A stretch of DNA of 64,000 nucleotides, from the NCBI RefSeq assembly GCF_001403635.1, contig NZ_LN879466.1, forward strand, positions 186,001 through 250,000, read 5' to 3'. Source of the DNA: Clostridium massiliamazoniense. Its GTDB lineage: Bacteria; Bacillota; Clostridia; Clostridiales; Clostridiaceae. Positions 10,143 through 57,320 of this stretch are shown in pieces; positions within the stretch are counted from its first letter, which is position 1, and each line of letters starts with the position of its first letter. The notes under the pieces are model-generated. The model made no database searches, was not told where the DNA came from, and was given only the letters and a program-made list of their open reading frames with translations. A program made the translations under genes and the position numbers.

Positions 10143-10271
10143 AACGTAGACCTAAATCAGGTGGAGCTTTGATTCTATCTGAATGTTTAGTGGGTGTTAT
10201 CTAGAAGGATGAGGTTATTTCTCTCCTACTTATAGAAGATAGGAGTATTACAGCCTCTAGCTATCAGATGA
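10143..10271 (+). repeat. 130-nt structured repeat, copy A (complete)
   Basis: It starts TAAACGTAGACCTAAATCAG and ends AGCTATCAGATGAA. Stem 1 pairs CTAAATCAGGTGGAG with TTCTATCTGAATGTTTAG using several G-U pairs, and stem 2 pairs TCTCCTA with TAGGAG around ATAGAAGA-type sequence. It lies directly upstream of the yccF-like gene, whose ribosome binding site follows within 10 nt. Confidence 0.8.
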
Positions 10272-10288
10272 AAAGGGGGATTTTTTAA

Positions 10289-10651
10289 ATGTCATGCTTA
10301 GGCAATATACTTTGGTTTATATTTGGGGGGTTTTTTAATGCATTAGGTTGGTTTTTTATAGGAGTACTTTGGTGTATAACTATAATAGGAATTCCTATAG
10401 GTAAACAATGTTTTAAAATGGCTGGTTTACAACTTGCTCCTTTTGGGAAAGAAATAGTGACTGTTAATGACGGTACAGGGAGCTTAATTTTAAATATACT
10501 TTGGATAATATTTGGTGGATTTGGATTAGCTGTTGCTAACTTAATAAGTGCAGTATGTTTAGCAGTAACAATTATAGGAATACCATTTGCTATTCAAGCT
10601 TTAAAAATGGCATATTTATCTCTTATGCCTTTTGGTAAAGATGTGCAATAA
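10289..10651 (+). CDS. YccF-domain inner-membrane protein
   Basis: The 120-residue product is an internal duplication: GNILWFIFGGFFNALGWFF...GIPIGKQCFKMAGLQLAPFGKEI and later LNILWIIFGGFGLAVANL...GIPFAIQALKMAYLSLMPFGKDV. This two-fold YccF (DUF307) domain has about four TM helices. The family's function is unknown. The ATG follows AGGGGGA by 7-8 nt. The structured repeat just upstream would be part of its mRNA leader if transcription starts further up. A terminator follows. Confidence 0.9.
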   Translation: MSCLGNILWFIFGGFFNALGWFFIGVLWCITIIGIPIGKQCFKMAGLQLAPFGKEIVTVNDGTGSLILNILWIIFGGFGLAVANLISAVCLAVTIIGIPFAIQALKMAYLSLMPFGKDVQ

Positions 10652-10666
10652 AAATTAAAATTTTAG

Positions 10667-10725
10667 AAATAGGGCTAGTTTAAAGGATAGAATAATTAGT
10701 TATCTTTTAGACTAGTCTATTTTTA
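10667..10725 (+). terminator. Rho-independent terminator
   Basis: A long stem, AAATAGGGCTAGTTTAAAGGATA against TATCTTTTAGACTAGTCTATTTTT, with two small mismatches and a T-run. Confidence 0.75.
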
Positions 10726-10895
10726 TAGTCTCACAGAGGATGGCTCTTATTAATTGACGTTGTATTATAGTAGATATAAACTATAATTATAGAAGATAAG
10801 GGGAAGGTTAAATTTTAGGTAGGTTACATTAAATATACAAGTTCCTAAAAAGAAAAAAGGAGGAATTACCATCTCTGTAAAAGGAATATTGGTAA

Positions 10896-11606: not shown

Positions 11607-11908
11607 CCTTAAAAAGTTTAGCGCCTTTATTAAATATAAAAAATAAAAATTAATATAAAAAAATATTGATTTTTATTTTTTTATTTTTTAAATAATAAAT
11701 AAAAATTTTAGAGAATTAGATTAAATTTAAAATATAGTTAAAAAAAAAACAATTATAGATAGAAAAAATGAACAAAAAGTTAAAAATATATAGATTAAAA
11801 TTAAAGAAAAACTTAAAAATAAGGATATTAGTTATATTTATTAAAGTTAAAAAAATAACAATAGTAGATATTTTTTTATAAAAAGAATAAACTATAGATG
11901 TTGGCAAA

Positions 11909-11944: not shown

Positions 11945-12008
11945 AAATTGTATACAACCTATTTATTGTAGATTCTAATTTAATATATTCTTTAACAAAA
12001 TAAACTAA

Positions 12009-12182: not shown

Positions 12183-12263
12183 AATAAATTATATTTAATC
12201 CTAAGTACTTAATTTAACCTGTTTTTCCCCTTAATTCAGGTCGAAATAGCTACGTTACACAAA

Positions 12264-12318: not shown

Positions 12319-12512
12319 GATAAAAATAGAGGATTATTATTTTTAATTTACCTTTTGAACCAGTTAAGAGTATTAGGATAATGTTAGAGAAAATGAGATT
12401 TGTTTCAGGTGCAATTAAAGCTACAGTAGAAGTTATTTAGAATAGTTGTATTTAGTTATTTATGGTTCACAGGATATTGAAATATTGTAGATATTAGTGA
12501 TTTAATAAGCAA
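12319..12512 (+). other. Coding remnant and partial structured repeat
   Basis: At about 12340-12440 an open frame without a normal start reads FNLPFEPVKSIRIMLEKMRF and onward to a TAG; it may be the end of a lost gene. From about 12440 to 12512 the sequence resembles the right half of the 130-nt repeat family (GATATTAGTGATTTAATAAGC, as in the copy at 33 kb). Confidence 0.35.
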
Positions 12513-12555: not shown

Positions 12556-12635
12556 ATTATAAACATAGACTTAATTCAGATAGAGTTTTGACTATATCTG
12601 AATGCTTAGTCAAAGTTATCTAGCTAAAGCAAGGA
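12556..12635 (+). repeat. 130-nt structured repeat, copy B (left half intact)
   Basis: It contains GACTTAATTCAGATAGAG/CTATATCTGAATGCTTAGTC as a strong stem and then AAAGTTATCTAGC; the right half has diverged. It lies upstream of the sulfite-reductase-like gene. Confidence 0.75.
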
Positions 12636-12730
12636 TTAATTTGAGGTATATTGAAATTTTATTTTAAGCTAAAAAAGCGCAATTATTGCCGTAGTTGCTG
12701 AGAAAATAACCATATAATAGAGGTGTTAAT

Positions 12731-16378: not shown

Positions 16379-16512
16379 TAAAGAAAAAATTAAGATTTAA
16401 TTTACATAGAGTTTTCACTTTATCCAAATTTTAGCAGATTATATAGAGATAGTTTTTGTTTATTTTCAATTTATAGAAAGCGGATTATACACATATTAGT
16501 AAAAGATAAAAA

Positions 16513-16757: not shown

Positions 16758-16812
16758 TTGTAGCTTAATTCAGATGGAGTTAAAACTCCACATGAATTGA
16801 GTTTACGTTTAC
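16758..16812 (-). repeat. 130-nt structured repeat, copy C (left stem only, reversed)
   Basis: On the minus strand it reads TAAACGTAAACTCAATTCAT and forms the family's stem 1, AATTCATGTGGAGT against ACTCCATCTGAATT. The right part is missing. It lies about 50 nt before the next gene's start. Confidence 0.7.
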
Positions 16813-19493: not shown

Positions 19494-20141
19494 AAAATCA
19501 CCTCTTAAGTTTATTTTTATTATATTATTTATTTTTAAAATACAATTTATCTGATAATTAGTATTTGTAATATTCCACTTTTTTATAAATTAGAGATAAA
19601 CAGACACTAATCTCAGTTTATGCTAATAAAATAAGAATCAATTTAAATAGAATCTTTATAAAAATCTTGATTATTGATTTAATTATTTTTATCTTAGTAA
19701 GTTTAAAAGTTAAATAATATTAAAATTAGAGAACTAGAATGCTAAATCCTCCTAATTTATATTAATATATTAATGGATTAATGAGATAAAATCAAAGGAT
19801 ATATAAGGAATTAATTACCTGAAGTCACTAATAAACTTAAATATAGGAGAAAATATTATAGATTACTATGGAATTTATTCTAGAAATGAAGATGTATTTA
19901 TAAAAAGTTTTATTAAAATATATATAAATTATGGTATTAAATAAGAAAAAGGTGAATTAAAATTCATAGTAATTTCATATAAAGTTTTTTTTAAATACAC
20001 CTTATCATATTAAAATGTAGTAAATAATTAAAATAAATTTCAAGTTATACTTAGAAAAAGAGGATTAAGATGCAATAAAGATAAGATTTATTTGTTTCTT
20101 TTAAATTCTCTTTTTAATATATTAAGCTACGGAGAAATTGT
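19494..20141. other. AT-rich gap with a possible coding remnant
   Basis: No complete gene was seen. At about 19817-19944 a frame without a standard start reads LKSLINLNIGENIIDYYGIY and onward to a TAA; its composition is protein-like and it may be a broken gene. A CCTGAAGTCACTAATAAAC segment at its start weakly recalls the flank of repeat copy C. Confidence 0.3.
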
Positions 20142-21233: not shown

Positions 21234-22136
21234 ATGAATATTAATATATTAGGAGTGCCACTATACTATGGATGTGACAGATATGGAGTTCAATTTGGTC
21301 CAGAAAAATTAAGAGAAAAGGGATTAGTTGATATATTTAGAAACGAAGGTCACAAAGTTTATGATTTAGGAAACCTTTATGTGAAAGAAGTAACTGCTTT
21401 TGAAAAATATGAAGTTGGAACAACAATGAAGTATTTATCTCCAGTTGTTAACACTAATAACAACTTAGCACAATCAGTATATTCAACAATTAAAGCTGGA
21501 AACTTCCCATTTTCAGTAGGAGGAGACCATGCAATGGGTCTTGGAACACTAGCAGGAGCTGCTAAAGCTTTTGGAGAAGACTACGGAGTAGTTTGGATAG
21601 ATGCACATGGTGATATAAACACAGAAGCATCAAGCCCATCAGGAAATACTCATGGAATGCCACTTGGAGCATCAATGGGATTTGGAAGCGATAAATTAAA
21701 AAATATATTCTTTGAAGGCAAAAAAGTTGATCCAAGCAAGGTATTCTTAATTTGTCAAAGAGATCTTGATGAAGGTGAAGTTGAATTAATAAAAGAATAC
21801 AACATTAATTTATGGACAAGTGCTGACATAAAGGAAAAAGGTATGGAAGCAATAATGAAAGAAGTAATTGCTAAAATGGAAGGAACTAAAGTTAATAACT
21901 TCCATATAAGCTTTGATATTGACTGTATGGATGCAAGCTTAGTTCCAGGAACAGGTACACCAGTAGATAACGGAATATCAGTTGAAGATGCAGAATTTAT
22001 GTTAGAGCAATTATTCAAAACTGGAAAAATAAAAGCTATGGATTTTGCTGAGTATAATCCAGGATTAGAATACAATAAAACAACTGATAGTTGTATAAAA
22101 GTATTAAATCATTTAGCTAAAAACTGTATGAAATAA
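21234..22136 (+). CDS. rocF: Arginase, copy 1
   Basis: The 300-residue ureohydrolase hydrolyses L-arginine to L-ornithine and urea with two Mn ions. Ligands are all present: H99 (GGDH), D123, H125, D127 (DAHGD), D228 and D230 (SFDIDCMD). The arginase-specific substrate loop INTEASSPSGNTHGMPL (N129, S136, N138, catalytic-type H140) separates it from agmatinase and formimidoylglutamase. The C-terminal PGTGTPV is typical. GAGGAGGA precedes the ATG. It is followed at 85 bp by a close paralogue and then by an ArcD-like antiporter, making an arginine-use operon likely. Gene symbol by analogy with bacterial arginases. Confidence 0.92.
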   Translation: MNINILGVPLYYGCDRYGVQFGPEKLREKGLVDIFRNEGHKVYDLGNLYVKEVTAFEKYEVGTTMKYLSPVVNTNNNLAQSVYSTIKAGNFPFSVGGDHAMGLGTLAGAAKAFGEDYGVVWIDAHGDINTEASSPSGNTHGMPLGASMGFGSDKLKNIFFEGKKVDPSKVFLICQRDLDEGEVELIKEYNINLWTSADIKEKGMEAIMKEVIAKMEGTKVNNFHISFDIDCMDASLVPGTGTPVDNGISVEDAEFMLEQLFKTGKIKAMDFAEYNPGLEYNKTTDSCIKVLNHLAKNCMK

Positions 22137-22221: not shown

Positions 22222-23130
22222 ATGAAAATGAATATAGTAGGAATTCCATTACATTATGGATGTGATAGATTCGGAGTAGAAAAGGGACCAAATAAACTAA
22301 GAGAAAACGGATTAATTGAAATATTTGAAAAGAATGGAAATGAAGTTTATGATTTAGGTAACTTAATTGTTCCTGAAAGACCAGCTTCAGAAAAATATGA
22401 AGAAGGAACTCATATGAAATGGGTAACTCCAATTGTAAAATGTAATGAAGAATTAGCAGAAGTAGTTTATTCTTCACATAAAGCAGGAGCTTTTCCATTT
22501 TCAGTAGGTGGAGACCATGCAATGGGACTTGGAACAGTAGCAGGATCATCTAAAGCTTTCGGAGAAGACTTTGGAGTAGTTTGGATAGACGCACATGGAG
22601 ATATAAATACAGAAGAATCAAGTCCATCAGGTAATATTCATGGTATGCCATTAGCATCATCAATGGGATTTGGAAGTGAAAGACTTAAAAATATATTCTT
22701 TGAAGGTAAAAAAGTTGATCCAAGTAAAGTATTCTTAATTTGTCAAAGAGATTTAGATCCAGGCGAAGTTGATATGATAAAAGAATACAATATAAACTAC
22801 TGGTCAAGTGCTGATATAAGAGAAAGAGGCATGGATGTAATTATGAAGGAAGTAGTTGCAAGAATGGAGAAAGTAGGGGTTAACAACTTCCATTTAAGTT
22901 TTGATATAGACTCTATGGATGCGAACTTAGTTCCAGGAACAGGTACTCCAGTATATGATGGAATAAATGTGCATGATACAGAATATATGTTACAACAATT
23001 ATTCAAAACAGGAAAAATAAAAGCTATGGATTTCTCAGAATATAATCCAGGACTTGAATATACAGTAACTACAGATAACTGTATTAAAATATTAAATGCT
23101 GTATCAAGATGTTTAGCAGAGATTAAGTAG
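22222..23130 (+). CDS. Arginase, copy 2
   Basis: The 302-residue paralogue of the preceding gene is alike over its full length and keeps every Mn ligand (GGDH, DAHGD, SFDIDSMD) and the loop NTEESSPSGNIHGMPL. The N-terminal third (residues about 35-75) differs most, with a WVTPIVKCNEELAEVVY segment, so substrate use or regulation may have shifted. It is preceded by GCAGGAGG about 10 nt before the ATG. The 85-bp spacer has no terminator, so both are probably on one mRNA. The pair arose by tandem duplication; whether the second copy has the same specificity is open. Confidence 0.9.
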   Translation: MKMNIVGIPLHYGCDRFGVEKGPNKLRENGLIEIFEKNGNEVYDLGNLIVPERPASEKYEEGTHMKWVTPIVKCNEELAEVVYSSHKAGAFPFSVGGDHAMGLGTVAGSSKAFGEDFGVVWIDAHGDINTEESSPSGNIHGMPLASSMGFGSERLKNIFFEGKKVDPSKVFLICQRDLDPGEVDMIKEYNINYWSSADIRERGMDVIMKEVVARMEKVGVNNFHLSFDIDSMDANLVPGTGTPVYDGINVHDTEYMLQQLFKTGKIKAMDFSEYNPGLEYTVTTDNCIKILNAVSRCLAEIK

Positions 23131-24952: not shown

Positions 24953-25087
24953 TTTACATAAACTAAGGATTAATTCGGGTAGAGTGTTGACGCTAGCTGG
25001 ATTTTAGTGGAGGTTATCAAGGATATGTGTCTGTTTAGCTTTAGGTTATAGGAGAGTAGAGTGTTACAGATACTGGCCATCAGATAA
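24953..25087 (+). repeat. 130-nt structured repeat, copy D (diverged)
   Basis: It begins CATAAACTAAGGATTAATTC and ends TACTGGCCATCAGATAAATA. The hairpin bases have drifted more than in other copies, with part of stem 1 mispaired. It is placed between the antiporter terminator and the lysP-like gene. Confidence 0.65.
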
Positions 25088-25185
25088 ATAATATTTTAAA
25101 AACATTATGGAGTTTTAAATCATAATTATCAAATTTACTTTAAGGAGTAATAGTTATGGTTAAATATCTAACAGGAGGAATAAAA

Positions 25186-33014: not shown

Positions 33015-33146
33015 TATAAACTAAGACTTAATTCAGATAGAGTTCTGACTCTAGCTGAATTTTAGTCGAAGTTATCTAGGGGCATGTATTTGTTTGGTTC
33101 CACCTTATAAAGAGCTGGAATGATATAGATATTAGTGATTAAGCAA
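33015..33146 (+). repeat. 130-nt structured repeat, copy E (complete)
   Basis: It begins ATAAACTAAGACTTAATTCA and has stem 1 GACTTAATTCAG.../...CTGAATTTTAGTC, then GAAGTTATCTAG and a right part ending AGTGATTAAGCA. It lies in the middle of a long gap, about 500 bp from the nearest gene. Confidence 0.8.
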
Positions 33147-33640
33147 ATATTTATTTTAAAGAATAATATTTTATTTTTAGTTAGGTACTAAGAATAAAAT
33201 ATTTTTTTATAATTCTTTTTAATGAAAATATTAAGAAGGATAATTTTATTCATTACAAATAATAAAATAAAAAATATTAAATAATATAGATTAATTGGTA
33301 TTGTTAAAGGTGGTTAAAATAATTTTAATAGTCAGATAAATATAGTAATTTTTAATTTACCTTATTTCCTCAAAAATAACTTGTAGTATAATTTAAAATT
33401 CCTAAATGAAAACCTATTAAATTTATGATTTTGTTAATTTAACTTTATTTAAATTAACGATAATAAATAAGTTTAAAAAAATATGGAAATTAAACATTTT
33501 TTTTAATCTTGTACTTAAATATAGGAATTGAGTTGTATATTTCTATGTATAAATATGAATTATTGTAAAATGCATCAAAAAACCTATTTTTTATCTATAA
33601 GATTGAATTGTAGAATTTAAAAAAATGTAAATAGATATGT
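33147..33640. other. AT-rich intergenic region
   Basis: No gene was seen. The last bases contain an extended -10, TGTTATAAT (33638-33646), for the next gene; no clear -35 box fits it. Confidence 0.45.
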
Positions 33641-34950: not shown

Positions 34951-35016
34951 AAACTATATACATTATATATGGGTATTAGAAATAGTACTTATACCTAATG
35001 TATATAGTTTTTTTTA
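34951..35016 (+). terminator. Rho-independent terminator
   Basis: AAACTATATACATT/AATGTATATAGTTT with GGTAT/ATACC inside and a TTTTTTTT tail. The structured repeat (copy F) starts within a few bases of its tail. Confidence 0.9.
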
Positions 35017-35142
35017 ATCTGATAGCTTATTAATGCTTCTATCTTCTATAAGTAGGAGATAAATAACCTCACGCTTTTAGATAAGTTTGACTAAGCATTC
35101 AGATGAAGTCAAAATTCCACCTGAATTAAGTCTACGTTTATT
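35017..35142 (-). repeat. 130-nt structured repeat, copy F (complete, reversed)
   Basis: On the minus strand it runs TAAACGTAGACTTAATTCAG to AGCTATCAGATT. Stem 1 pairs TTCAGGTGGAATT-type bases with GACTTCATCTGAATG, and stem 2 pairs TATCTCCTACTT with AGAAGATAGAAG. It lies between a terminator and the CpsB-like gene, facing away from that gene. Confidence 0.8.
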
Positions 35143-41860: not shown

Positions 41861-41889
41861 TTTTTGCTTTAAGAAATATTATATTCAAA

Positions 41890-42876: not shown

Positions 42877-43009
42877 AAGTTAAGCCTCCTATTTGCTTTC
42901 TATCAATTCTAGTATACCAAAATTATGTATATTTTTTACTTATAAAGAAAATTTTATTTGTTAATATTTTTTATTTTCTAAATTGTTAGGGTTATATAAA
43001 GAAGAGTAT

Positions 43010-43131
43010 TTATAAACACAGACTACACATTTAGGTATCTGAATGTGTAGTCGAAGTTATCTATAAGCATGAGGCTGTTATCTTCTACTTATGAAAGTAG
43101 AAGTATTACAGCCTCTAGCTATGAGATGAAT
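43010..43131 (+). repeat. 130-nt structured repeat, copy G (complete)
   Basis: Stem 1 here is GACTACACATT/AATGTGTAGTC, a base sequence different from other copies yet still fully paired. Stem 2 is GAGGCTGT.../...ACAGCCTC with TTCTACTT/AAGTAGAA, the strongest in the window. Its right end stops at about 6 bp before the stop codon of the minus-strand glycosyltransferase. Confidence 0.85.
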
Positions 43132-43136
43132 AAGAT

Positions 43137-44069: not shown

Positions 44070-44097
44070 TGCTTTGTCTCCCTCAATAATTTAAGTT

Positions 44098-44868
44098 TTA
44101 ATTTAATAGTTTTTTTCTATATTTAATAATTCCTTTTATGATATAGAAAAAAGAATACCATAGGGATCTAAATAAACCTAAATGTTCTATTTCGTAATAT
44201 ATAAAAAATCTTTTGATTATACCATCTAATTTATTTGAAGATCTAGATTTAGCAGATAATCTATATATAGCAAGTGGTTTATTAATACCTATAGCAGTTT
44301 TTGCTTCTTTCATTATTTTAAGCCAAGTAACATAATCTTCATGTTTTTCGTTAGTAACCATTGTTATGTCCTTAACTTTCGTTTTATCTATAATAACCGT
44401 GTCACAGGAAAAATAATTCATTTTTAATAATGATTTATAGTCTATATGATCAGGAACTTCAAAAGTACCATATTTAGTAGATAAATCATGAGAAAATAAA
44501 TCATAAGCTGTACAAGAAATAGGTACATTAGCTTTTTTCATTGCATCAAGTTGCAATGATAATTTATCTTCCATCCATGTATCATCACTATCAAGAAAAG
44601 CTATAAATTGTCCTTTTGATTCTCTTATGGCGGTATTTCTAGCTTCAGCAGGACCCTTATTATTAATATGTTTGATTAATTTTATTCTTCCATCAATAGC
44701 TGAAAAGTCTTGAACTATATTACAAGAATTATCTTTAGAGCAATCATCTACTATTAATAATTCCCAATTTTCATAGCTTTGTTTTATTACACTTTCAATC
44801 ATCTCTGTGATAAAATTTTCGCTATTGTACATAGGAGTAATTATAGAAACAAGATTATTTATAATCAT
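44098..44868 (-). CDS. GT2 glycosyltransferase
   Basis: A 256-residue GT-A enzyme with VSIITPMYNSENFI, IVDDCSKDNS (about 39-48), the acceptor/metal motif FLDSDDTW (91-98, DSDD 93-96) and EARNTAI. The C-terminal part has an amphipathic hydrophobic segment (YYEIEHLGLFRSLWYSFFYIIKGI) that may bind the membrane. It lies 28 bp from the degenerate homologue and 2 bp from the third gene. It probably adds a sugar to a lipid-linked capsule unit. Confidence 0.88.
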   Translation of the reverse strand: MIINNLVSIITPMYNSENFITEMIESVIKQSYENWELLIVDDCSKDNSCNIVQDFSAIDGRIKLIKHINNKGPAEARNTAIRESKGQFIAFLDSDDTWMEDKLSLQLDAMKKANVPISCTAYDLFSHDLSTKYGTFEVPDHIDYKSLLKMNYFSCDTVIIDKTKVKDITMVTNEKHEDYVTWLKIMKEAKTAIGINKPLAIYRLSAKSRSSNKLDGIIKRFFIYYEIEHLGLFRSLWYSFFYIIKGIIKYRKKLLN

Positions 44869-44870
44869 TG

Positions 44871-45692
44871 TTATCTCACGTCCTTATCATTAGTTTTTGA
44901 TGCAATACAAAAATTTTTATAATTTTTACGTCCATCAAACATAGAGGTTATAGCTGAAAGAAAAGTGAGATTACTCTTATAAAGCTTATGTTTTCTAATA
45001 GAGTATTGAAGTATTAAAAGGGTAGAGAGCTTAGATGACATTTCATAGTATATGGCTCCCATATCATTAAAAAATTTATTATCAAATCCAGTAAACCAAG
45101 TAGATTCTTCATGGTTTACAATCCCTATTTTATCTTTACAATAAACTAAATTTAAATTCTTTCTTAAACACTCAAATAGAAGAATATTTTCTTCTCCCAT
45201 TTTATATTTTGAACCTGCACCAAATAGTTCGTTAAAATTAATATTATTTTCTATAAAACTTTTTCTTTTAAAAGTTAATTGAAAAGAAGCAAGCTTCATG
45301 CTTTTTAAATAACCTAATTTACCTTCTTTATCAATAACTGTAGTAGGTCTTTCTAAATTAGAACTAGGGACATCAAAAGCAATTATATCAGCCTCAGGAT
45401 ACTTTAAATAGGCTTGTCTAACTATTTCTATATAATTATCATTATAAATGATATCATCATCAGCTATTATACATATGTCTCCAGTTGCATTGGTTATGGC
45501 TTTATTTCTGCTTTTACTTAGTCCTTTTTCATTACAAGAAATGAATTTTATTTTGTGATTATTGTTATCAATCTCAGTATATTCATCTTTTTTACACTGA
45601 TTTATAATCACAGCATCTCCACGTAAATTCATTTTCTTTATTAGGCTGAAATCCTTTTGGTTCATTGTAGCCACTAAAACTTCAACGTTCAT
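44871..45692 (-). CDS. GT2-type glycosyltransferase
   Basis: The 273-residue product begins VEVLVATMNQKDFS and has the GLSKSRNKAITNATGDICIIADDD segment (ADDD, about 77-80) of GT-A enzymes. The MNQKD and NQCKKDEY motifs resemble the glycosyltransferases that open short capsule cassettes. AGGAGG stands about 8 nt upstream on the minus strand. The three minus-strand genes form an operon divergent from the Wzz-like gene, with a 380-bp shared spacer. Confidence 0.8.
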   Translation of the reverse strand: MNVEVLVATMNQKDFSLIKKMNLRGDAVIINQCKKDEYTEIDNNNHKIKFISCNEKGLSKSRNKAITNATGDICIIADDDIIYNDNYIEIVRQAYLKYPEADIIAFDVPSSNLERPTTVIDKEGKLGYLKSMKLASFQLTFKRKSFIENNINFNELFGAGSKYKMGEENILLFECLRKNLNLVYCKDKIGIVNHEESTWFTGFDNKFFNDMGAIYYEMSSKLSTLLILQYSIRKHKLYKSNLTFLSAITSMFDGRKNYKNFCIASKTNDKDVR

Positions 45693-46019
45693 TAAAACCT
45701 CCTAAATTTATCTTTTGTATTACATACAGGAATTTTTCTTTATTTATTATATCATTAAATAAGTGTAAAAAAAACAAGCTATAATGTTTTTAAAAGGGGA
45801 GAAGTTTACATTAACAATGAAAAAATGATTAAGTATGTTTAAAGAACAGTACAAAATTATTTATATTAAAAGATACTTTCACAAAATTTTAATATAAAAG
45901 GTAAAAGAATCACATTAAGAAAAATATTTGAATTATAGATATGGATAAGGACTTAAGTTATTAGTTAAGAAATTGGATATTAATTAGGTAGAGTAAATCT
46001 TTAATAAAAAATTTAAAAA
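45693..46019. other. Divergent intergenic region of the capsule locus
   Basis: AT-rich, without a gene. It must carry promoters for the minus-strand glycosyltransferase operon and the capsule operon. No JUMPstart-like element was recognised. Confidence 0.4.
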
Positions 46020-46028
46020 TGCTATAAT
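46020..46028 (+). promoter_or_regulatory. Extended -10 of the capsule operon
   Basis: TGCTATAAT about 43 nt before the start codon of the Wzz-like gene; the -35 region (TTTAAT at about 46000) is poor, which suits an extended -10 promoter. Confidence 0.6.
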
Positions 46029-46070
46029 TAACTTCGGAAACTTAAGAAAAAATAAAAGAGGAGAAACTTA

Positions 46071-46667
46071 ATGAAAGATAATTCGATGAGATTTAGTGAA
46101 TTAGTTTGGTTGCTTCGAAAGAGATGGTATATTGTAATAGTTTGTGTGATAATTGCAGTTTTATGTACAAATCATTTTGTTAAAAATAAGTACGTAATTA
46201 CAGATGTAGTTAATGTAACTGAGTCACCAGCTATGCAAAAGGAATCAAGGCTTTCACAATTAGTTAACTATAATTCAGGATTAAATAAGGCTAGTTCAGT
46301 AGTTGATGAAAAAGTAATTAAAGCTGCATTAGACGATATTAATTCGAATTTGGATCCAAGTAAAGTTCTGAAGAATCTAAGAATTCTTGTTAGACCAGAT
46401 AAGAAACAATTAATATTTCAGTATACTACTGATGATGATTCAAATTGGTTTAATGTAATGAGATCTGTAACATATAAATCAATGGGAACCATTAGTTTAT
46501 ACACACCTGGTTTAGATTATAAAAGAGATGGAAACATCGTTATAAAACAAGTTAATTCTATGAAGCAAAGAATAGCTTATGATGTAGAAGGCGGTTTTAT
46601 AGGGATATTTTTAGGATTGGGAGTAATATTTTTTATAGAAAGTATCTTAGATTTTAGAAGAAAGTAG
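46071..46667 (+). CDS. Wzz/CpsC-like chain-length or polymerisation-control protein
   Basis: The 198-residue product has the Wzz topology: TM1 (about 18-36, after LVWLLRKRWYIV), an extracytoplasmic domain and TM2 (about 172-190) with a short Arg/Lys tail. It is smaller than CpsC and lacks the C-terminal tyrosine-rich activator motif, so kinase activation is uncertain. AAAGAGGAGAAACTTA precedes the ATG. It heads the operon, 9 nt before the polymerase-like gene, as is typical for chain-length proteins. Confidence 0.75.
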   Translation: MKDNSMRFSELVWLLRKRWYIVIVCVIIAVLCTNHFVKNKYVITDVVNVTESPAMQKESRLSQLVNYNSGLNKASSVVDEKVIKAALDDINSNLDPSKVLKNLRILVRPDKKQLIFQYTTDDDSNWFNVMRSVTYKSMGTISLYTPGLDYKRDGNIVIKQVNSMKQRIAYDVEGGFIGIFLGLGVIFFIESILDFRRK

Positions 46668-46676
46668 GAGAAATAA

Positions 46677-47900
46677 GTGAATAGTTATTTAGGACATTTG
46701 AACGTAGTAGATATATGTGTATTACCTATATATTTAGTTGTAGTTTTTTTTATATTGTATTATGCAATGAGAACTTTACTTCTAGAGGATAGAAAATATA
46801 ATAAAATATATCTTATACTACTAATTATATTTAATTTTGCTGTATTATTAGCAAGTACTGTTATTAAGCTTATTCCAGATTTTCCAGATGCAAATATGTA
46901 TTCTGGGATTGTTCGAACGGGAATAATGCCACCAAATCAAACTATGGCCGTAGCTGTAGGATTTAAATATGGATCTTTAATATTTAGATATTTGAGTTTT
47001 CATAATGTACTTTGGTATATAACTTTTAACTTTTTAATAAATCAATTAGGAATAATATTGATTTGGAAAGCTTGGATAAAATATAAAAAAGGCGATGTAA
47101 TGCTAATACAACAGAGAATTTATTTTATTTTAACAGCTTTTTATCCAATGGCATTACTTATGGGAATAGTTCCTTTTAGAGGTTCATACTTCTTAATATT
47201 TTTTGCAATATTCCTTTATGGAGCTGTATCAAAATGGGTAATTAATGTTCCTTTTATAATTGGAAGTATTGGAATGATAATTTTAAGAAAAGAATATGTA
47301 ATGGTTGTTGGTGTAATATTTTTAGTTAAACTATATAATTCAATTAAGATTAAAAGTAAATGGCTAAAAGCTGTTCTAGTAATAATAGCAATAATAATAT
47401 GCTATATAGTTGGCTCTTATGCAGCTAAAAAATTATTTAACTTATCAATAACTCCACAAGGGTTAAGTCATTTTAGAAATGGTCAAACAATTCAATATAT
47501 AAACACAAGGTATTCTTATCCTTTAATACATTGGAAGAATTGGCTACAAGTAATAGCTTATTCACCACTTTTATTATTACAATTTTTATTTGCACCATTA
47601 CCAATAGTAAGCCATATAGATCCTTTTAAAGGACTAGCTTATTTAGCAGATGCTTTATATGTTGTATTCTTAACATTATTATTCATAGTAAGAATACATA
47701 AGAATATTAAAGGGAATGGATTCTGGATTGTGAATATACTTGTTCTTTGGGTGTTAAATGGAATGTTTGAATATTATATAAATGCAGCAGTTAGACATAG
47801 GTATTATATGATAATAATGCTTATAGCATTAATAACAGAAGGGTTTAAGTATATAAAAATAGGAAAAGAAAAAGAAAGAGAACCTATGAAGTATTACTAA
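46677..47900 (+). CDS. EpsG/Wzy-like polysaccharide polymerase
   Basis: The 407-residue polytopic product has about ten TM helices, and a position between the Wzz-like gene and a glycosyltransferase as in Wzy-dependent loci. An extracytoplasmic loop with DFPDANMYSGIVRTG, and VPFRGSYFLIFFAIFLYG, match the layout of EpsG-type polymerases, though the GLRYxxGxDYxxY signature seen in the other polymerase of this window is absent. Start is a GTG with AGGAGA in front. It could be a polymerase or another polysaccharide membrane protein. Confidence 0.65.
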   Translation: MNSYLGHLNVVDICVLPIYLVVVFFILYYAMRTLLLEDRKYNKIYLILLIIFNFAVLLASTVIKLIPDFPDANMYSGIVRTGIMPPNQTMAVAVGFKYGSLIFRYLSFHNVLWYITFNFLINQLGIILIWKAWIKYKKGDVMLIQQRIYFILTAFYPMALLMGIVPFRGSYFLIFFAIFLYGAVSKWVINVPFIIGSIGMIILRKEYVMVVGVIFLVKLYNSIKIKSKWLKAVLVIIAIIICYIVGSYAAKKLFNLSITPQGLSHFRNGQTIQYINTRYSYPLIHWKNWLQVIAYSPLLLLQFLFAPLPIVSHIDPFKGLAYLADALYVVFLTLLFIVRIHKNIKGNGFWIVNILVLWVLNGMFEYYINAAVRHRYYMIIMLIALITEGFKYIKIGKEKEREPMKYY

Positions 47901-47958
47901 AATATGATGAATTATTTGGTGTTTTGTAACACTATATATTTAGAGGAAGGTTAAACTA

Positions 47959-49014
47959 ATGAAAAATATTGTTATTTCTAGCATAGAGCAATATGGATAT
48001 TTAATTGATACCTATAAATATTGTGAAAAATTAAAGAAAAATAATAAAATAACATACGTTTGTTTTGATTATGGTTTTGAAAAAATCGAAGATGAATTAG
48101 TAGATGTTATTTACTTACCAAAAGAAGGTTCATTGATAAAACGTATGGTAAACTTAAATAGAACTGTAGCAAAGGTTGCTAAAAGAAATAAGTGTGATTT
48201 AATATTTAATGTATATAATCCTTTAGTTTTCATAACAAAGTTATTGACTTTAGGAAAAAGAAATATATTAGATATAAGAACAGGGAGTATAGATCCTGTT
48301 AAAGAAAATAGAGATAAAGCAAATAAAAGGATATTATTTAATAGTAAATTTTTTAGTGAAGTAACTATTATATCTCAATCTTTAGCAGAGTTATTAAAAA
48401 TAAAGGATTACACTATTATTCCACTTGGTGGGGATAGAGTATCAAAAAATACAACTAAAAATTTAGATAAAATAAGATTACTTTATGTTGGAGTTTTAGC
48501 AGATAGAAAAATAATAGACACAGTAATTGCTTTTAATAAGTTCGTAGAAAAATATTCTGATTTAGATATTGAGTATGATATAATTGGATATTTTATGGAT
48601 GAAAATTCTAAGGAAGCTAAAGAATTTTTTTCTGAAGTAAATAAAAATCAAAAAATAAATTATTTAGGTAGAAAAAAGCATGAAGAATTAGAAGAATACT
48701 TTAATAAAGCTAATGTAGGAGTTAGTTATATTCCTATGACAGAATATTATGATGTACAGCCACCAACAAAAACATTTGAATATTTAAGTCAAGGGTTAAT
48801 AACTATAGCTACTAATACCAGTGAAAATAAGAGAGTAGTTAATAAAAATAACGGGATATTATGTGATGATAATAGTGATTCCTTTTATGATGCTTTAGAA
48901 ATCTTATTAAAAGAAAGATTTAATTTTAAAACAGATTACTTAAGAGAATCTGTTAAAGAATATAGTTGGGATTATATTATAGATAATAAGCTTATTCCAA
49001 TTATAGAAAAATAG
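47959..49014 (+). CDS. GT4-type glycosyltransferase
   Basis: The 351-residue product has a GT-B fold: N-terminal domain with VVISSIEQYGYLIDTYKYCEKL and a C-terminal domain with LLYVGVLADRK, YLGRKKHEELEEYFNKANVGVSYIPMTEYYDVQPPTKTFEYLSQGL, including the E-x7-E-like donor site (about 265-285). Retaining enzymes of this type use UDP- or GDP-sugars. It follows the polymerase gene by 58 bp. Its stop codon is overlapped by repeat copy H. Confidence 0.8.
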   Translation: MKNIVISSIEQYGYLIDTYKYCEKLKKNNKITYVCFDYGFEKIEDELVDVIYLPKEGSLIKRMVNLNRTVAKVAKRNKCDLIFNVYNPLVFITKLLTLGKRNILDIRTGSIDPVKENRDKANKRILFNSKFFSEVTIISQSLAELLKIKDYTIIPLGGDRVSKNTTKNLDKIRLLYVGVLADRKIIDTVIAFNKFVEKYSDLDIEYDIIGYFMDENSKEAKEFFSEVNKNQKINYLGRKKHEELEEYFNKANVGVSYIPMTEYYDVQPPTKTFEYLSQGLITIATNTSENKRVVNKNNGILCDDNSDSFYDALEILLKERFNFKTDYLRESVKEYSWDYIIDNKLIPIIEK

Positions 49015-49142
49015 ACATAGACTCAATTCAGATGGAATTTTGGTTTATCTGAATGCTTAGTTACAGTTATCTAGAAGAATAAGTCTGTTTATCTACTGCT
49101 TATAGAAGTGAGGAGCATTACAGCTTTTAACTATCAGATAAA
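49013..49142 (+). repeat. 130-nt structured repeat, copy H (complete)
   Basis: It begins at the stop codon of the glycosyltransferase gene. Stem 1 pairs ATTCAGAT/ATCTGAAT. The right arm has TCTACTGCTTATAGAAGTGAGGA and ends CTATCAGATAAA. It leads into the flippase gene after about 110 bp. Confidence 0.8.
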
Positions 49143-49255
49143 ATTAAGTATGAGTTAATGGTGTCTTTTAGTGTCTAAAAGATAAAATTTAGGTAGAGAA
49201 ATCTTCCTAAATTTTTCTATATACAAAAGAAGATTAAGATAAATAAGGAGTTAAC

Positions 49256-50785
49256 ATGAGAGTAAAAAATTCTATAAAAAATGCTAAGGTGGGTGTTATT
49301 TTTAACTTTACAAATTTAATCTTGAGCTTTGTATCTAGGTCTATATTTATTTATTATTTAGGGGTAAACTTACTTGGATTAAATACTGTTTTAGTAAACC
49401 TTATAGGAATATTAAATTTAATAGAGCTTGGTATAGGGACAGCTGTAAATTATGAATTATACAAGCCTTTAGAGGAAAAAAATTATAAAAAAATAAATGA
49501 AATAATGGCTATATTTAGGAAAATATATAAGTATGTTGGAGTACTTGTTTTTCTTATAGGTTTAATATTAATACCATTTTTAAAGTACTTTGTAAAGGGT
49601 GTTATACCATATAATGAAGTTATAGTTTATTACATGGTTCTTTTAGTAAGTACTGCAGGTACATATTTCTTTTCATATAAACAAACATTAATTTATGCGG
49701 ATCAGAAGAATTATATAGCAACTTCAATTTCTGGTATTAGCAGTATAATAAAGGTAATAGCTCAAATTATATTTGTAGTCTTATTTAAGAGCTATTTATC
49801 TTGGGTAGTATTAGGTCTTATATTTAATTTTATCTTTTTAATTATGACTAACAGAAGAATAGATGCTTTGTATAAAGATAGAATTGACTTAAAATATGAT
49901 AAAAGTATAAAAGAATTAACTGCCAATAATCCATCTTTGATAAAAAATATAAAAAATATATTTTGTCATCAGCTTGCTACTATAATATTTCAAAAAACTG
50001 ACCCATTAATTATAGCGGCATATTCAACTTTGAAAGAATCAGGGATTTATTCAAACTACCTGTTAATACTAACAGGGGTTAGTACTATAACAGCAACTAT
50101 ATTAACAGCTATGGAAGCTAGTATTGGTAATTTAATTGTTAGCGAATCAATAGAAAAGACTTTTGATATTTTTAAAGAGTTATGTTTTGGAACTAATATT
50201 TTTTCCATTGTTATTTGTTTTCCATTATATATGGTAATAAATAAATTTATAGAATTTTGGGTTGGACCTAATTATCTTTTTGGAAATGCCATTGTTATAG
50301 TTTTGATAATAAATTTCTATATTGGAATGAATAGAGTAGTAATACAAAATTTCAAAAGTTGTTATGGAATATATTGGGATGTGTGGGCTCCGGTAGTAGA
50401 GTCAATAATAAATATTGTTTTTTCAATATTAATAGCATCTAAGTATGGGATAATTGGTATTTTTATAGGTACTCTAATAAGTAATATTTTAATTGTTTTA
50501 ATATGGCAGCCATTAGCTGTATTCAAGTATGGTTTTAAAAAGAATGTATTTGAATATTATTTTTGGTATATAAAATCAGCTATAATAGCATTCATATTAT
50601 CTTATATTGGATTTATATTAACAGACAATGTAATTAATCATTTAAATATAAAAAGTATGATAGTAAACTTTTTTGTAACAGGAGTTATATCTACAATAGT
50701 AATTTTAATACTTCTATTAATCGTTAATATAAAAAATAAGCATATGAGAAAACTTTTTAATAGAATTAAAGGGATGAGGAGATAA
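49256..50785 (+). CDS. Wzx-type oligosaccharide flippase
   Basis: The 509-residue protein has about 14 TM helices and the polysaccharide-synthesis MATE/MOP layout, with NAKVGVIFNFTNLILSFVSRSIFIYYLG at the start and a central NIKNIFCHQLATIIFQKTDPLIIAAYS loop. It would flip the lipid-linked repeat unit of the first module across the membrane. AAGGAG precedes the ATG by about 6 nt. It is 5 nt from the next glycosyltransferase gene. The repeat copy upstream separates it from the preceding gene but no terminator is seen. Confidence 0.88.
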   Translation: MRVKNSIKNAKVGVIFNFTNLILSFVSRSIFIYYLGVNLLGLNTVLVNLIGILNLIELGIGTAVNYELYKPLEEKNYKKINEIMAIFRKIYKYVGVLVFLIGLILIPFLKYFVKGVIPYNEVIVYYMVLLVSTAGTYFFSYKQTLIYADQKNYIATSISGISSIIKVIAQIIFVVLFKSYLSWVVLGLIFNFIFLIMTNRRIDALYKDRIDLKYDKSIKELTANNPSLIKNIKNIFCHQLATIIFQKTDPLIIAAYSTLKESGIYSNYLLILTGVSTITATILTAMEASIGNLIVSESIEKTFDIFKELCFGTNIFSIVICFPLYMVINKFIEFWVGPNYLFGNAIVIVLIINFYIGMNRVVIQNFKSCYGIYWDVWAPVVESIINIVFSILIASKYGIIGIFIGTLISNILIVLIWQPLAVFKYGFKKNVFEYYFWYIKSAIIAFILSYIGFILTDNVINHLNIKSMIVNFFVTGVISTIVILILLLIVNIKNKHMRKLFNRIKGMRR

Positions 50786-54308: not shown

Positions 54309-54335
54309 ATATTATATATAAAGGGAGTGTTATGG

Positions 54336-55202
54336 ATGAAGGTGGCTATAGGAATTTTATGTCACAGGAGAACAAAGTCAATAGATAAAGTTATAGAACT
54401 TTTAGGACATGAATTTGATATTTATATTCATGTTGATAAAAAGTCAAATTTAAATGAATTTGATGATATTTTAGATAAGGTTAATTTTATAGAGGAAAGA
54501 GTTGATGTTAGATGGGGATCATACTCTCTAGTAGAAGGAACCTTACGTTTAATGGAAGCTTTCAATAAAAAAAATTATGATTATGTATCAATTATATCTG
54601 GTGAATGTCTGCCTTTAAAAAGTGCTGAAAATATAATAAATTTTCTCCAGGAAAATAAAGGAAAAGAATTTATAGGTGTAGATTTAAATGCTAAAGAAAA
54701 GGAAATAGAGGAAAGAATTAAATATAAATATTCAAATAGTTACTATAAAAAAGAGCAAGGAAGAATCAGTAGCAAACTTTTAAATATGAAAGAAAAGTTT
54801 TTAGGGAAACCAATAAATGAATATTATACTAGGTTACCTAAATTATATAAGGGATGTAATTGGTTTACTATATCAGGAGAGTTAAATAATTATATTTTAA
54901 TGTTCTTAAAGAAAAATGTAGAATTTGAAAATGCGTTTAAAAATGCTTTATGTAGTGATGAAATAATTTTTCAAACGATAGTAATGAATTCTAAATATAA
55001 AGATAAAATTTATAAATTTGATACAGAATATAATGATACGCATATGGCATTAAGATATATTGATTGGGAAAGTGGTCCTGATTATCCTAAATTGTTAGAT
55101 GAGAGTGATTTTTCTAAAATGAGAGAAAGGGATTTCATTTTTGGAAGAAAATTTAATGATAACTTAGATTTTGAAGTTTACAATGATTTTTTTTATAATT
55201 AA
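54336..55202 (+). CDS. Core-2/I-branching-type glycosyltransferase (GT14-like)
   Basis: The 288-residue product has VAIGILCHRR, IYIHVDKKSN and RVDVRWGSYSLVEGTLRLMEAF, the run of segments that marks bacterial members of the GT14 core-2/I-branching family, followed by YVSIISGECLPL. Some bacterial homologues are xylosyl- or glucosaminyl-like transferases. The ATG at 54336 has GGGAG about 8 nt before it; an in-frame GTG at 54327 lies within the site. The donor sugar is unknown. Confidence 0.85.
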   Translation: MKVAIGILCHRRTKSIDKVIELLGHEFDIYIHVDKKSNLNEFDDILDKVNFIEERVDVRWGSYSLVEGTLRLMEAFNKKNYDYVSIISGECLPLKSAENIINFLQENKGKEFIGVDLNAKEKEIEERIKYKYSNSYYKKEQGRISSKLLNMKEKFLGKPINEYYTRLPKLYKGCNWFTISGELNNYILMFLKKNVEFENAFKNALCSDEIIFQTIVMNSKYKDKIYKFDTEYNDTHMALRYIDWESGPDYPKLLDESDFSKMRERDFIFGRKFNDNLDFEVYNDFFYN

Positions 55203-55231
55203 TATATTTTAAATTGAAAGGAAAACAAAAG

Positions 55232-56293
55232 ATGAGGATTTCTAAAAAACTAATAATCAAGGCTAGATTAAGTAAAATGTGTGGTTTTACAAAATTTTGT
55301 TATTTTTTAAATAGAAATAAGAAAAGAATTATAGGGTATCACAATGTTATTCCAGATGAATATTTTGATGAAAGTATTCATTTAGAATGTTCTCATAGAG
55401 AAAGTGTTTTTAAGAATCAGCTAAAAGTTATAAACAATAGATTTAAGGTTAATTTAGAAATAAAAGAAGAGGGAACTGCAACATTAACCTTTGATGATGG
55501 ATATTTAAATCAATATTCCATTGCATCTAAAATAATGGATGAAATGAATAATCAGGGATACTTTTTTTGTGCAGTTAATTTAATTGATGATAAGAAAATA
55601 TTAGAAATAGATAAACTTATGTATTGGATGAGTTATGTTCCACTTGGTGAATATAATTTAGATGAAATAAATTATAAGTTGGAAATTAAAGAACAATGGC
55701 AAAGGAAAGAACAATGGTCTGTTCTTTATAATATGATAAGTAAATCATTTACTTTTGAAGATTTATCAAGAATTTTAGATAAGGCTTATGCTTTTGAGAA
55801 TATAAAAATAAATGATGAATTTTATAATATTAGATTTAAAGGTATAACAAGAGAAAATTTAAATGAAATGAAAAAGAAAAACCATAAGATAGGTGCCCAT
55901 TCAGTAACACATAGTATCTTTTCAAGGATGAAAATTGAAGATTTAGAAGAGGAAATAAAATGCTGTAGTGAGCTTTTAGGTGATGTATACAATACAAAGT
56001 TATTTGCCTATCCTTATGGTGGTAAAAGTGATATACCAGCTGAAGCTGAAAGAATACTAAGTAGAAGTGGTTTTAGTAGTGCTTTAGCTTATGGAAATTC
56101 TGATGTAGAGGGGGGATATAATGAATATTATATTCCAAGAATAATTTTACCTGATACAGATGATGTTGATGTAATAGATTTTATTTTGTCAGGGGCTATT
56201 AACATGATAAGTTATAGAAAATTACTTCCAGATTGGATTAATAAAGAGGGGGTTAATTATGGAAAGCGTAACAGTTATAGTGCCGGTATATAA
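55232..56293 (+). CDS. NodB-type polysaccharide deacetylase
   Basis: The 353-residue product has the NodB motifs TFDDGY (86-91), the metal-binding H-x3-H of AHSVTHS (H223 and H227) and FAYPYGG (about 260), separated by a long insertion (about 120-205) that is unusual in chitin deacetylases but normal in capsule-linked ones. It lacks a signal peptide, so cytosolic or membrane-peripheral action on lipid-linked intermediates is possible. The ATG at 55232 follows GAAAGGA. It overlaps the next gene by 35 nt. Confidence 0.85.
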   Translation: MRISKKLIIKARLSKMCGFTKFCYFLNRNKKRIIGYHNVIPDEYFDESIHLECSHRESVFKNQLKVINNRFKVNLEIKEEGTATLTFDDGYLNQYSIASKIMDEMNNQGYFFCAVNLIDDKKILEIDKLMYWMSYVPLGEYNLDEINYKLEIKEQWQRKEQWSVLYNMISKSFTFEDLSRILDKAYAFENIKINDEFYNIRFKGITRENLNEMKKKNHKIGAHSVTHSIFSRMKIEDLEEEIKCCSELLGDVYNTKLFAYPYGGKSDIPAEAERILSRSGFSSALAYGNSDVEGGYNEYYIPRIILPDTDDVDVIDFILSGAINMISYRKLLPDWINKEGVNYGKRNSYSAGI

Positions 56294-57287
56294 AGCAGAA
56301 AAGTTTTTGTATAAGTGTTTGGAAACTATAGTTAATCAAAGTTATAAGAATCTAGAAATAATTTTAGTTAATGATGGATCACCGGATAATTCATTAAAAA
56401 TAGCTGAGGAATTTGCAAAGAATGATAAAAGAATAAAGATAATAAATAAGAAAAATGAAGGTGTATCAGTTGCAAGAAATACAGCTTTAAATATTGCTAG
56501 TGGAGAATATATTTGTTTCATAGATTCAGATGACTATGTTGAGTTAAATATGGTTGAAGAAATGTATGAAAAAATAAAAAAATTTGATGCTGATTTAGTT
56601 CTATCAGATTATAATAGAGTATTTCCAAATAGAATTAAAGAAGAAGGTATGGTAATAGAAGAAGGATTTTATTCTGATAAAAAATTATTAGAAGAATTTT
56701 TTGAGGACTATATTTCTTTAACAGATAAATTTGGAACTAATCAATTTGCATGCACTAAATTATTCAAAAAAAGTATAATAGATACGTATAATTTAAGATT
56801 TAATAAGAGTTTAAAAATAGGGGAAGATCATCTTTTTACAGCTCAATATATAAGTCATATAAATAGTTTTTATGCCTTAACCGGCAGAAGATTTTATAAC
56901 TATGTTTATCAAGATGAATCTGCTATGGTTGCATATAGAGACGATTTGTATGATAATATAAAATTATTTTTTCTAGAACTACATAATATAAATTATGAAG
57001 GTTTAGAGAGAAAAGAGTTAGACAAAAAGATATATTCTGGATTTATTCTACATTTATATAGAGCTTTATTAAATGAAAATAAACCAGAAAATAAAAGAAA
57101 CAAAAAAGAAAAAGTTGAAAAAATACATTCAATAATAAGTGATGATTATTGCCAAAGAGCTTTAAATTTAATGGATAAGCGTTATATACCTACAAAATTA
57201 AAGCCATATTACATGTTTAGCAAAAGAAAAATGGCTAGTTTAGTTTACTTAGGATTGAAGGCTGAATATAAGATTTTCTCAAGATAA
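56259..57287 (+). CDS. GT2 glycosyltransferase
   Basis: The 342-residue GT-A enzyme has VTVIVPVYKAEKFLYKC, VNDGSPDNS and FIDSDDYVE (about 88-95, DSDD 89-92). The C-terminal half is helical and ends in a charged tail. It starts 35 nt inside the deacetylase gene behind AGAGGGGG. Its stop codon is overlapped by a truncated structured repeat (copy I). Confidence 0.88.
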   Translation: MESVTVIVPVYKAEKFLYKCLETIVNQSYKNLEIILVNDGSPDNSLKIAEEFAKNDKRIKIINKKNEGVSVARNTALNIASGEYICFIDSDDYVELNMVEEMYEKIKKFDADLVLSDYNRVFPNRIKEEGMVIEEGFYSDKKLLEEFFEDYISLTDKFGTNQFACTKLFKKSIIDTYNLRFNKSLKIGEDHLFTAQYISHINSFYALTGRRFYNYVYQDESAMVAYRDDLYDNIKLFFLELHNINYEGLERKELDKKIYSGFILHLYRALLNENKPENKRNKKEKVEKIHSIISDDYCQRALNLMDKRYIPTKLKPYYMFSKRKMASLVYLGLKAEYKIFSR

Positions 57288-57320
57288 ACTGAGACTTAAT
57301 TCAGATAAATTTTAGTTATT
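57284..57320 (+). repeat. 130-nt structured repeat, copy I (truncated)
   Basis: GATAAACTGAGACTTAATTC, then AGATAAATTTTAG, is the left end of the family; the rest is missing. It spans the stop codon of the preceding glycosyltransferase and runs up to the ribosome binding site of the next. Confidence 0.6.

Follow-up and report, generated by a model that had tools for sequence, protein, structure and literature searches.

Gene-less repeats with two hairpins in Clostridium massiliamazoniense belong to a family of small mobile DNA inserted at a short fixed site

The 64-kb stretch of Clostridium massiliamazoniense DNA analysed here (the window) is strewn with short repeats, which raise the question of whether they are mobile DNA or structured RNA and, if mobile, of how they move. 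A first-pass annotation of the window had counted nine or more copies and left both readings standing. The repeats are tiny gene-less mobile DNA with two hairpins, which inserts at a short fixed site.

Copies in the window and the wider family

The window contains six near-complete copies and four partial or decayed ones, all scoring above simulated chance; they are given below together with two candidates that stay within chance.

10140..10274, plus strand: near-complete copy (covariance model, 112 bits, and profile), ending 14 nt short of the ORF start codon at 10289
12388..12511, plus strand: possible decayed right part, near 12440 (covariance model E 0.16, within chance)
12559..12650 (12559-12624 by profile), plus strand: left half; the right part is missing or degenerate (covariance model, 57.8 bits, and profile)
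16385..16512, plus strand: strongly decayed copy, absent from the earlier list (covariance model E 0.0037; window profile 19.3 bits)
16768..16811, minus strand: hairpin 1 alone (17.3 bits by the profile without window copies; best score on the minus strand)
19546..19614, minus strand: right half, with hairpin 2 and the right end, absent from the earlier list (covariance model E 0.0014; window profile 24.7 bits)
24957..25090, plus strand: near-complete copy (covariance model and profile)
33016..33149, plus strand: near-complete copy with a degenerate right end (covariance model and profile)
35012..35141, minus strand: near-complete copy, reversed (covariance model and profile)
43012..43132, plus strand: near-complete copy with hairpin 1 shortened and a strong DNA fold, z -8.8 (covariance model and profile)
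49011..49144, plus strand: near-complete copy, its left edge overlapping TAG, the stop codon of the ORF that ends at 49014 (covariance model and profile)
57284..57311, plus strand: possible remnant of a left end, located where an ORF closes with its stop codon at 57287 (window profile 10.2 bits against 11.9 simulated, within chance)

Chance was gauged on 50 simulated windows (first-order Markov chain), the best simulated score of each profile serving as its cut-off: 7.3 bits for a profile of 59 copies from outside the window and 11.9 bits for a profile of the window's own six. The non-window profile, whose 59 copies were gathered with a covariance model (R1) that itself holds six window copies, recovers all six full copies at 20-48 bits and two of the four partial ones, the left half (22 bits) and the lone hairpin at 16768 (17 bits). 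The copies at 16385 and 19546 are not reported by this profile and are supported by the window profile. Pairwise identity among the six full copies is 62-82%.

The earlier count thus stands for the six near-complete copies, for the left half listed at 12556 and for the reversed stem listed at 16758, which is hairpin 1 alone (16811-16768), but not for the copy at 57284 or the fragment near 12440. Every copy had been placed between genes, which is correct except that the left edge of the 49013 copy reaches into the stop codon of the ORF on its upstream side, as would that of 57284 if it is a copy. No ORF was seen to accompany the repeat family, in line with the statement that none of the copies codes for a protein, and one mechanical ORF of 76 codons (43069-43299) overlaps the copy at 43010.

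Members of the family are mostly 120-160 bp long, lack a gene and carry two conserved but unlike hairpins, one near each end, the aligned ends reading AT-NAA and GG-AT. The proposal of a conserved two-hairpin fold is borne out by strong covariation (score 0.634, against 0.188 when shuffled and at most 0.089 when slid), and 93.9% of 1989 alignment cells are paired. Helix-tip expansions are present, as in structured RNA; G-T cells outnumber A-C cells by 79 to 48, but a single pair contributes 21 of the 79, so that the RNA-type wobble excess is weak and not decisive. Tandem arrays also exist, in which the units share the junction of TTTAT/TTAT target and TTNAT end described below.

The family was found in 31 of 299 genomes sampled from one phylum and in 70 of 299 sampled from one order. 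A GalE search led from the window to genome G385 at 72% identity, but R1 had no match in 10 genomes from its genus or in 20 from its family. Phages and plasmids gave no match to a window copy, nor did phages to the copy from locus L007 or plasmids to that from L051; the copy from L175 likewise had no match, and pattern searches of viral contigs matched 0, 0 and 2 contigs. A literature string search with element sequences returned unrelated matches only, none carrying them. The relatives across many Bacillota genomes point to a widespread, poorly known mobile element rather than to a gene-control RNA.

Insertion sites, ends and orientation

Two empty sites that show precise insertion, both outside the window, were found by comparison of relatives: one locus is filled in G013 and empty in G099, and another is filled in G133 and empty in G013. 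On the strand opposite to that of the first-pass annotation, the copy is preceded on its 5' side by TTTAT at 38 of 70 sites and by TTAT at 46, the remaining 24 differing. The element end, on the reverse strand, reads TTTAT at 42 and TTNAT at 57 of the 70 sites, counts that lean to TTNAT because some letters were preset by the parsing rule, namely T, then N, A and A/G at the left border and G ahead of the right one; the target flank letters were free. The 70 distinct sites are what remains of 83 copies after removal of 7 unparsed ones and 6 duplicates. The conserved site is one-sided and longer than an AT dinucleotide. The dinucleotide itself occurs once in the empty site and, in the filled site, once at either end, which can be read either as the element end TTNAT or as a 2-bp target duplication.

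Comparison of the left end with the reverse complement of the right end in the 83 copies gave 1-8 matches of 15, mostly 2-5, and thus no terminal inverted repeat. The earlier label "MITE-like" is therefore apt as to mobility, which is evident from the empty sites, precise ends, tandem arrays and wide spread, but the element is not a classical MITE. No IS200/IS605-style guide was recognised by eye 5' of the hairpin foot on the target strand. The forward-strand TTATCC linker before hairpin 2, complementary to the right end together with its flank (GGAT-AA), was considered as a guide and rejected: the flank reads AA in 33 of 45 copies with the TT and in 16 of 21 without it, 13 further copies having no readable linker.

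With respect to genes, 118 copies could be classed: 37 lie in sense and 43 in antisense between co-directional genes, 23 between divergent and 15 between convergent genes. This count does not support an initial impression that copies tend to lie in sense just 5' of ribosome-binding sites. Rfam yielded no match in the window at gathering score, and a permissive search of 12 loci and of 42900-49300 in the window gave no at-threshold match over the element. With neither an orientation preference nor an Rfam match, the suggestion of a functional RNA module is unsupported.

With respect to replication, at least 24 copies are present in the complete genome G578 (150 of 2492 candidates scored), and 23 of these 24 fit a split into two arcs, a fit equalled in none of 5000 permutations; the arc borders coincide with the GC-skew switches. 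In the complete genome G452, 39 of at least 55 copies (150 of 1360 candidates scored) agree with skew-defined arcs (Fisher 0.002). If the leading strand is the one with positive skew, TTTAT followed by the element lies on the lagging-strand template in both genomes. When clostridial copies are pooled, no strand bias relative to local GC skew appears (44 of 84), and pooled Bacillales-like copies agree in only 25 of 39 (p 0.11). Single clostridial genomes are mixed, with 10 of 11 in G017 and G136, where some loci are orthologous, and 0 of 3 in G013; in the window, four of five copies are oriented opposite to the trend in G578 and G452.

The enzyme and the mode of movement

Y1 transposase genes are present in 15 of the 18 genomes examined, in which 75 loci were fetched of 90 matches. 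Among seven copy-rich genomes examined from the order of G195, six have Y1 proteins of 182-201 aa, G452 being the one without. None of the Y1 genes at the 75 loci is bounded by both element ends. A Bacillales-like profile matched three of the loci, always as partial or separate copies: in L252 a truncated left end lies some 430-470 bp 5' of a Y1 gene and the right end is missing, L246 contains a separate, nearly whole copy, and L248 contains only fragments of the two ends. A mainly clostridial profile, run on 45 of the loci, yielded one decayed remnant and one match at chance level; L142, where an IS605-like tnpA adjoins a decayed remnant, was rejected as an autonomous element. Three copy-rich genomes, G133, G110 and G281, all multi-contig assemblies, have no PF01797 gene at E 0.001. 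One of them, G133, bears an insertion that is absent in a relative.

The explanation that we favour, and hold to be somewhat probable, is that the window's repeats form a local subfamily, old and for the most part decayed, of a non-autonomous structured element that is spread across the Bacillota and moves as a single strand by means of an HUH/Y1-type enzyme supplied in trans. A transposase resembling TnpA or TnpA_REP would bind the hairpins and cut after the TTNAT motifs, releasing a single-stranded DNA circle in the manner of IS200/IS605, and where the lagging-strand template exposes a TTTAT, the circle would be pasted 3' of it. Judging by the letters, a TAA stop codon hit by an insertion could be restored, since on the forward strand AT-AA is read both at the site and at the usual left end of the element; insertion at gene ends would therefore cost little. 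Precise insertion at the empty sites, the TTTAT/TTAT target, the lack of a terminal inverted repeat, covarying hairpins and the replichore-linked orientation in G578 and G452 support single-strand movement; the pooled clostridial orientation, the copy-rich genomes without PF01797, the missing partner and guide, and the AT duplication reading count against it.

Retrohoming also shows fork-linked orientation, and an RNA-mediated element, whose folded transcript an enzyme in trans would reverse-splice or reverse-transcribe at TTTAT sites, could account for this trait as well as for the strong covariation and the helix-tip expansions; given the feeble wobble excess and the window's lack of an RNA family match at gathering score, it is held to be improbable. 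Somewhat better placed, yet still unlikely, is a double-strand mechanism, in which a trans-acting DDE transposase or serine recombinase makes a 2-bp AT duplication or uses AT as its crossover core. Such a mechanism would fit the AT found once in the empty site and at both ends when filled, the lack of PF01797 in three copy-rich genomes and the unbiased strands of pooled clostridial copies. It is at odds with the lack of a terminal inverted repeat, the replichore-linked orientation in G578 and G452, the one-sided site longer than a dinucleotide and the conserved covarying hairpins, which DDE and serine enzymes do not need.

A special case of single-strand movement, and compatible with it, is that the family is a canonical palindrome-associated element (PATE) of one IS200/IS605 insertion sequence, the autonomous form of which survives in some species but was missed. 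It shares the traits of the general model, and trans-acting TnpA on elements consisting of ends only has been described (PMC7290912), but no insertion sequence with the element ends occurs among the Y1 loci examined and the canonical guide position holds no recognised guide; the case is a possible one, though doubtful. A regulatory RNA acting in cis, be it a riboswitch, an attenuator or a module for mRNA stability, is contradicted as a general reading and has next to no probability. Some copies do lie directly 5' of a likely ribosome-binding site, as at 10140-10274, and bcr1-bcr3 are described as common in UTRs and intergenic parts of operons (PMC3446304), but the gene-orientation counts, the empty sites and the window's lack of an Rfam match speak against it. 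Beyond single-strand movement by a Y1-type enzyme, there is a small chance that the repeats represent a class of mobile DNA of Bacilli and Clostridia that has at no time encoded a transposase, in which the folded single strand would exploit a host or replication-fork enzyme, HUH-like or other, and of which bcr1 is perhaps the sole named member. If so, copy-rich genomes without a Y1 gene would use an enzyme not yet tied to transposition.

Relation to known repeats and significance

Compared by description rather than by sequence, the closest described kind appears to be bcr1 of the Bacillus cereus group, TTTAT being associated with both. In the original bcr1 paper, each end of the repeat is reportedly flanked by TTTAT, and the length is said to be near 155 bp. 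According to PMC6542083, bcr1 and the other group A B. cereus repeats are 100-400 bp long, number tens of copies, are mostly chromosomal and combine traits of mobile elements with the TTTAT motif; bcr1-bcr3 are called MITE-like in PMC3446304. The bcr1 repeats are reported from the B. cereus group only, whereas the present family has hosts outside it: Geosporobacter, a Clostridia MAG, and plasmids of Pseudalkalibacillus and Peribacillus. BLAST searches of 72,556 plasmids with family members had no B. cereus-group plasmid among their matches.

IS200/IS605 elements are described as inserting 3' of a tetra- or pentanucleotide, without terminal inverted repeats or target duplication, and as having hairpins and using the lagging strand (PMC6006769, PMC7290912). 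The present family resembles them and PATEs in its hairpins near both ends, the lack of terminal inverted repeats, insertion 3' of a fixed penta- or tetranucleotide and the lagging-strand orientation in two genomes, and perhaps also in the absence of a target duplication, depending on how the AT at both ends is read; it differs in that no tnpA with the element ends was found at the loci examined, no guide was recognised and clostridial copies have no general strand bias. Many intergenic hairpin copies, tandem arrays and a suspected Y1 enzyme in trans recall the REP/BIME and RAYT systems. However, REPs are described as 21-65 nt long with a canonical GTAG/GTGG foot (PMC6006769), while the present family, at 120-160 nt, has two unlike hairpins and the defined ends AT-NAA/GG-AT instead of a single GTAG/GTGG hairpin. 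The intergenic stem-loop repeats Efa-1, Clop-1, Clot-1 and Bhal-1 of other Bacillota, given as 74-163 bp (PMC2267715), are similar in placement, stem-loops and size, again by description and not by sequence; the EFAR repeat named in PMC3733652 is perhaps the same as Efa-1.

While bcr1 is reportedly limited to a single species group, about a tenth and about a quarter of the genomes sampled from two large groups contain the present family. Because its ends are defined, empty sites exist and orientation follows the fork in some genomes, the identity of the moving enzyme can be tested directly. At gene ends, the element can supply both stop codons and hairpins.

Copies and fold of the repeat

The window (64,000 bases, 25.9% G+C) contains six near-complete copies of a 120–135-nt repeat, with pairwise identities of 62–82%. 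Against a profile of 59 copies from other genomes, for which chance reached at most 7.3 bits across 50 simulated windows, the six score 20–48 bits, although this test is not wholly independent because the model that collected the 59 copies contained six window copies.

Copies of the repeat in the window
10140, forward: near-complete copy
24957, forward: near-complete copy
33016, forward: near-complete copy
35012, reversed: near-complete copy
43012, forward: near-complete copy
49011, forward: near-complete copy
12559: left half (22 bits, profile of other genomes' copies)
16768: lone hairpin (17 bits, same profile)
16385: additional copy (19.3 bits, window profile; E 0.0037, covariance model)
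19546: additional copy (24.7 bits, window profile; E 0.0014, covariance model)

The repeat family described in the first-pass annotation stands for the six full copies, 12559 and 16768, all above simulated chance, but not for 57284 and a fragment near 12440, which score within chance with the window profile and the covariance model, respectively. Its list was also incomplete, lacking 16385 and 19546, for which the two backing models are the window profile (at most 11.9 bits in simulations) and the covariance model.

On the forward strand the element runs from AT-NAA through hairpin 1, a linker and hairpin 2 to GG-AT-AA. It contains six helices, with changes on both sides in 27 of 28 pairs. Paired cells amount to 93.9%, and the covariation score is 0.634 versus 0.188 for shuffled and at most 0.089 for slid controls, which are biased towards the structure because the alignment had been fitted to it. 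Fitting alone hardly accounts for the 487 double changes in 1989 cells. Loops and helix tips are variable and expanding, up to roughly 100 nt in genome G110, four loci of which (L131, L133, L134 and L135) carry large extra hairpins inside helix tips or the linker, as if helices were growing through insertion.

The window also holds a second intergenic repeat pair of ~300 bp (1690–1993 and 41574–41864; 84–96% identical by segment). The 1690–1993 copy folds into a single long hairpin. One copy retains the left end GGGGCTGTATCAAAT and the other the right end ATTTGATACAGCCCC, and the pair probably represents a MITE derived from an IS that has these ends, which we take to be IS1182-like. Two tandem duplicated genes, presumably agmatinase/arginase-like, lie at 21234–22136 and 22222–23130, in DNA stretches 72 and 82% identical.

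Distribution and nearest described repeats

In a pattern scan of genome contigs, Geosporobacter ferrireducens and a Clostridia MAG together gave three matching stretches; the MAG has 46 matching places at E ≤0.01, some being parts of a single copy. Of 299 genomes sampled in the phylum of G001, 31 are hit by the covariance model R1 (16 sequences, 28 pairs) at E ≤0.001; the 31 include both search seeds, G001 and G002. In eleven of the 31, 10 or 11 of the 11 candidates scored per genome match. R1 found no match in one genus (10 genomes) and one family (20 genomes). A BLAST search with a single 161-nt copy has hits (E ≤1e-6) in 70 of 299 genomes from the order of G195, with G195 and G269 known beforehand; judging from the named plasmid hosts, this order would be Bacillales. 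Plasmids of Pseudalkalibacillus hwajinpoensis and Peribacillus asahii match by BLAST, and one of Peribacillus sp. R9-11 matches weakly (E 0.01, 60 bases). That the copies across these genomes form one repeat family is nearly certain.

An internally deleted copy is carried by plasmid pNY3A (L169), recorded from the Gram-negative host Klebsiella grimontii, and may reflect transfer or contamination. At L075 (genome G058; 1501–1618), a family member stops no more than ~10 nt from the 5' end of what we take to be a 16S rRNA gene.

Among described repeats, bcr1 of the Bacillus cereus group has by description the most traits in common with the element. It is TTTAT-associated, structured and mobile, and is reported in PMC6542083 as confined to that group; its secondary structure is also described in PMC8725734. 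Plasmid searches gave no match to family members on B. cereus-group plasmids.

Insertion sites and gene context

The first-pass annotation offered two readings, a mobile element or a functional RNA module. The former is borne out by two precise empty sites, one in each of two alignments (G013 versus G099 and G133 versus G013), and by a head-to-tail array of ~5 units in the Clostridia MAG, where the right end of a unit abuts the left end of the next. BLAST coordinates suggest that the G013/G099 insertion is absent from G133 too. There is very little doubt that the element is mobile. Two dispersed repeat families unrelated to it occur at locus L082 of G013 (query positions 3070–3176 and 7021–7330); both are present in numerous copies in G099 and G133.

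Reverse-strand reading places TTTAT just 5' of the element in 38 of 70 sites and TTAT in 46, with the element terminating in TTTAT in 42 and TTNAT in 57; these end counts are inflated, as the parsing rule fixed certain border letters, leaving free the flank AA of the forward site AT-AA. Left ends frequently lie where the upstream gene stops, as at 49011 in the window, and from the sequence an insertion into TAA could rebuild TAA.

The RNA reading fails on gene context. Distinct copies, defined as profile hits reaching from the left end to model position 75 or beyond with one taken per 400 bp, number 125; seven at locus edges were excluded, and the remaining 118 fall into ++ (37), −− (43), −+ (23) and +− (15) contexts, 37 ++ standing against 43 −−. 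The element is not a regulatory RNA. This count lends no support to the initial idea that copies lie ahead of ribosome-binding sites. Overlap of >60 bp with an ORF of >300 bp, called mechanically, occurs in 4 of the 118.

Strand orientation and candidate transposase

On the single 5.5-Mb contig of G578, a two-arc strand split accommodates 23 of 24 copies, a fit matched by none of 5000 permutations, and the arc borders (1.24–1.67 and 3.69–3.98 Mb) coincide with switches in GC skew and coding strand, as read from 20 sampled 10-kb pieces. In G452, 45 of 55 copies fit the best split (a fit reached in 4 of 5000 permutations), and 39 of 55 agree with arcs set by GC skew (Fisher 0.002) at the contig start and at 1.795 Mb, the latter positioned by hand between two samples. 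Copy numbers are at least 24 and at least 55, respectively, with 150 candidates scored per genome. In both genomes, the lagging-strand template would be the strand on which TTTAT precedes the element; use of this template is described for IS200/IS605 in PMC6006769. By local skew, copies antiparallel to the leading strand number 44 of 84 in clostridial and 25 of 39 in Bacillales-like loci (our own grouping, by locus), 1 of 5 in the window, 10 of 11 in G017 and G136 together and 0 of 3 in G013. Replication-linked orientation is not general.

Of the 18 genomes surveyed, 15 have genes for PF01797, the HUH-type Y1 transposase considered as a mover in trans, and G133, G110 and G281 have none. None of the 75 Y1 loci fetched, of 90 matches, is bounded by both element ends. 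Y1 proteins of 182–201 aa recur in G195, G444, G570, G578, G634 and G657; of the seven copy-rich genomes examined from the order of G195, these six have them and G452 does not. Their link to the element is conjecture. The element works like an ends-only derivative of IS200/IS605, and movement by a single-strand mechanism is slightly favoured. Membership in IS200/IS605 is not claimed, because no guide of that style was recognised in the element and no autonomous partner was found.

The element is known in kind, with no description in Clostridia found in the literature searched. It is a real, widely distributed, non-autonomous mobile element.
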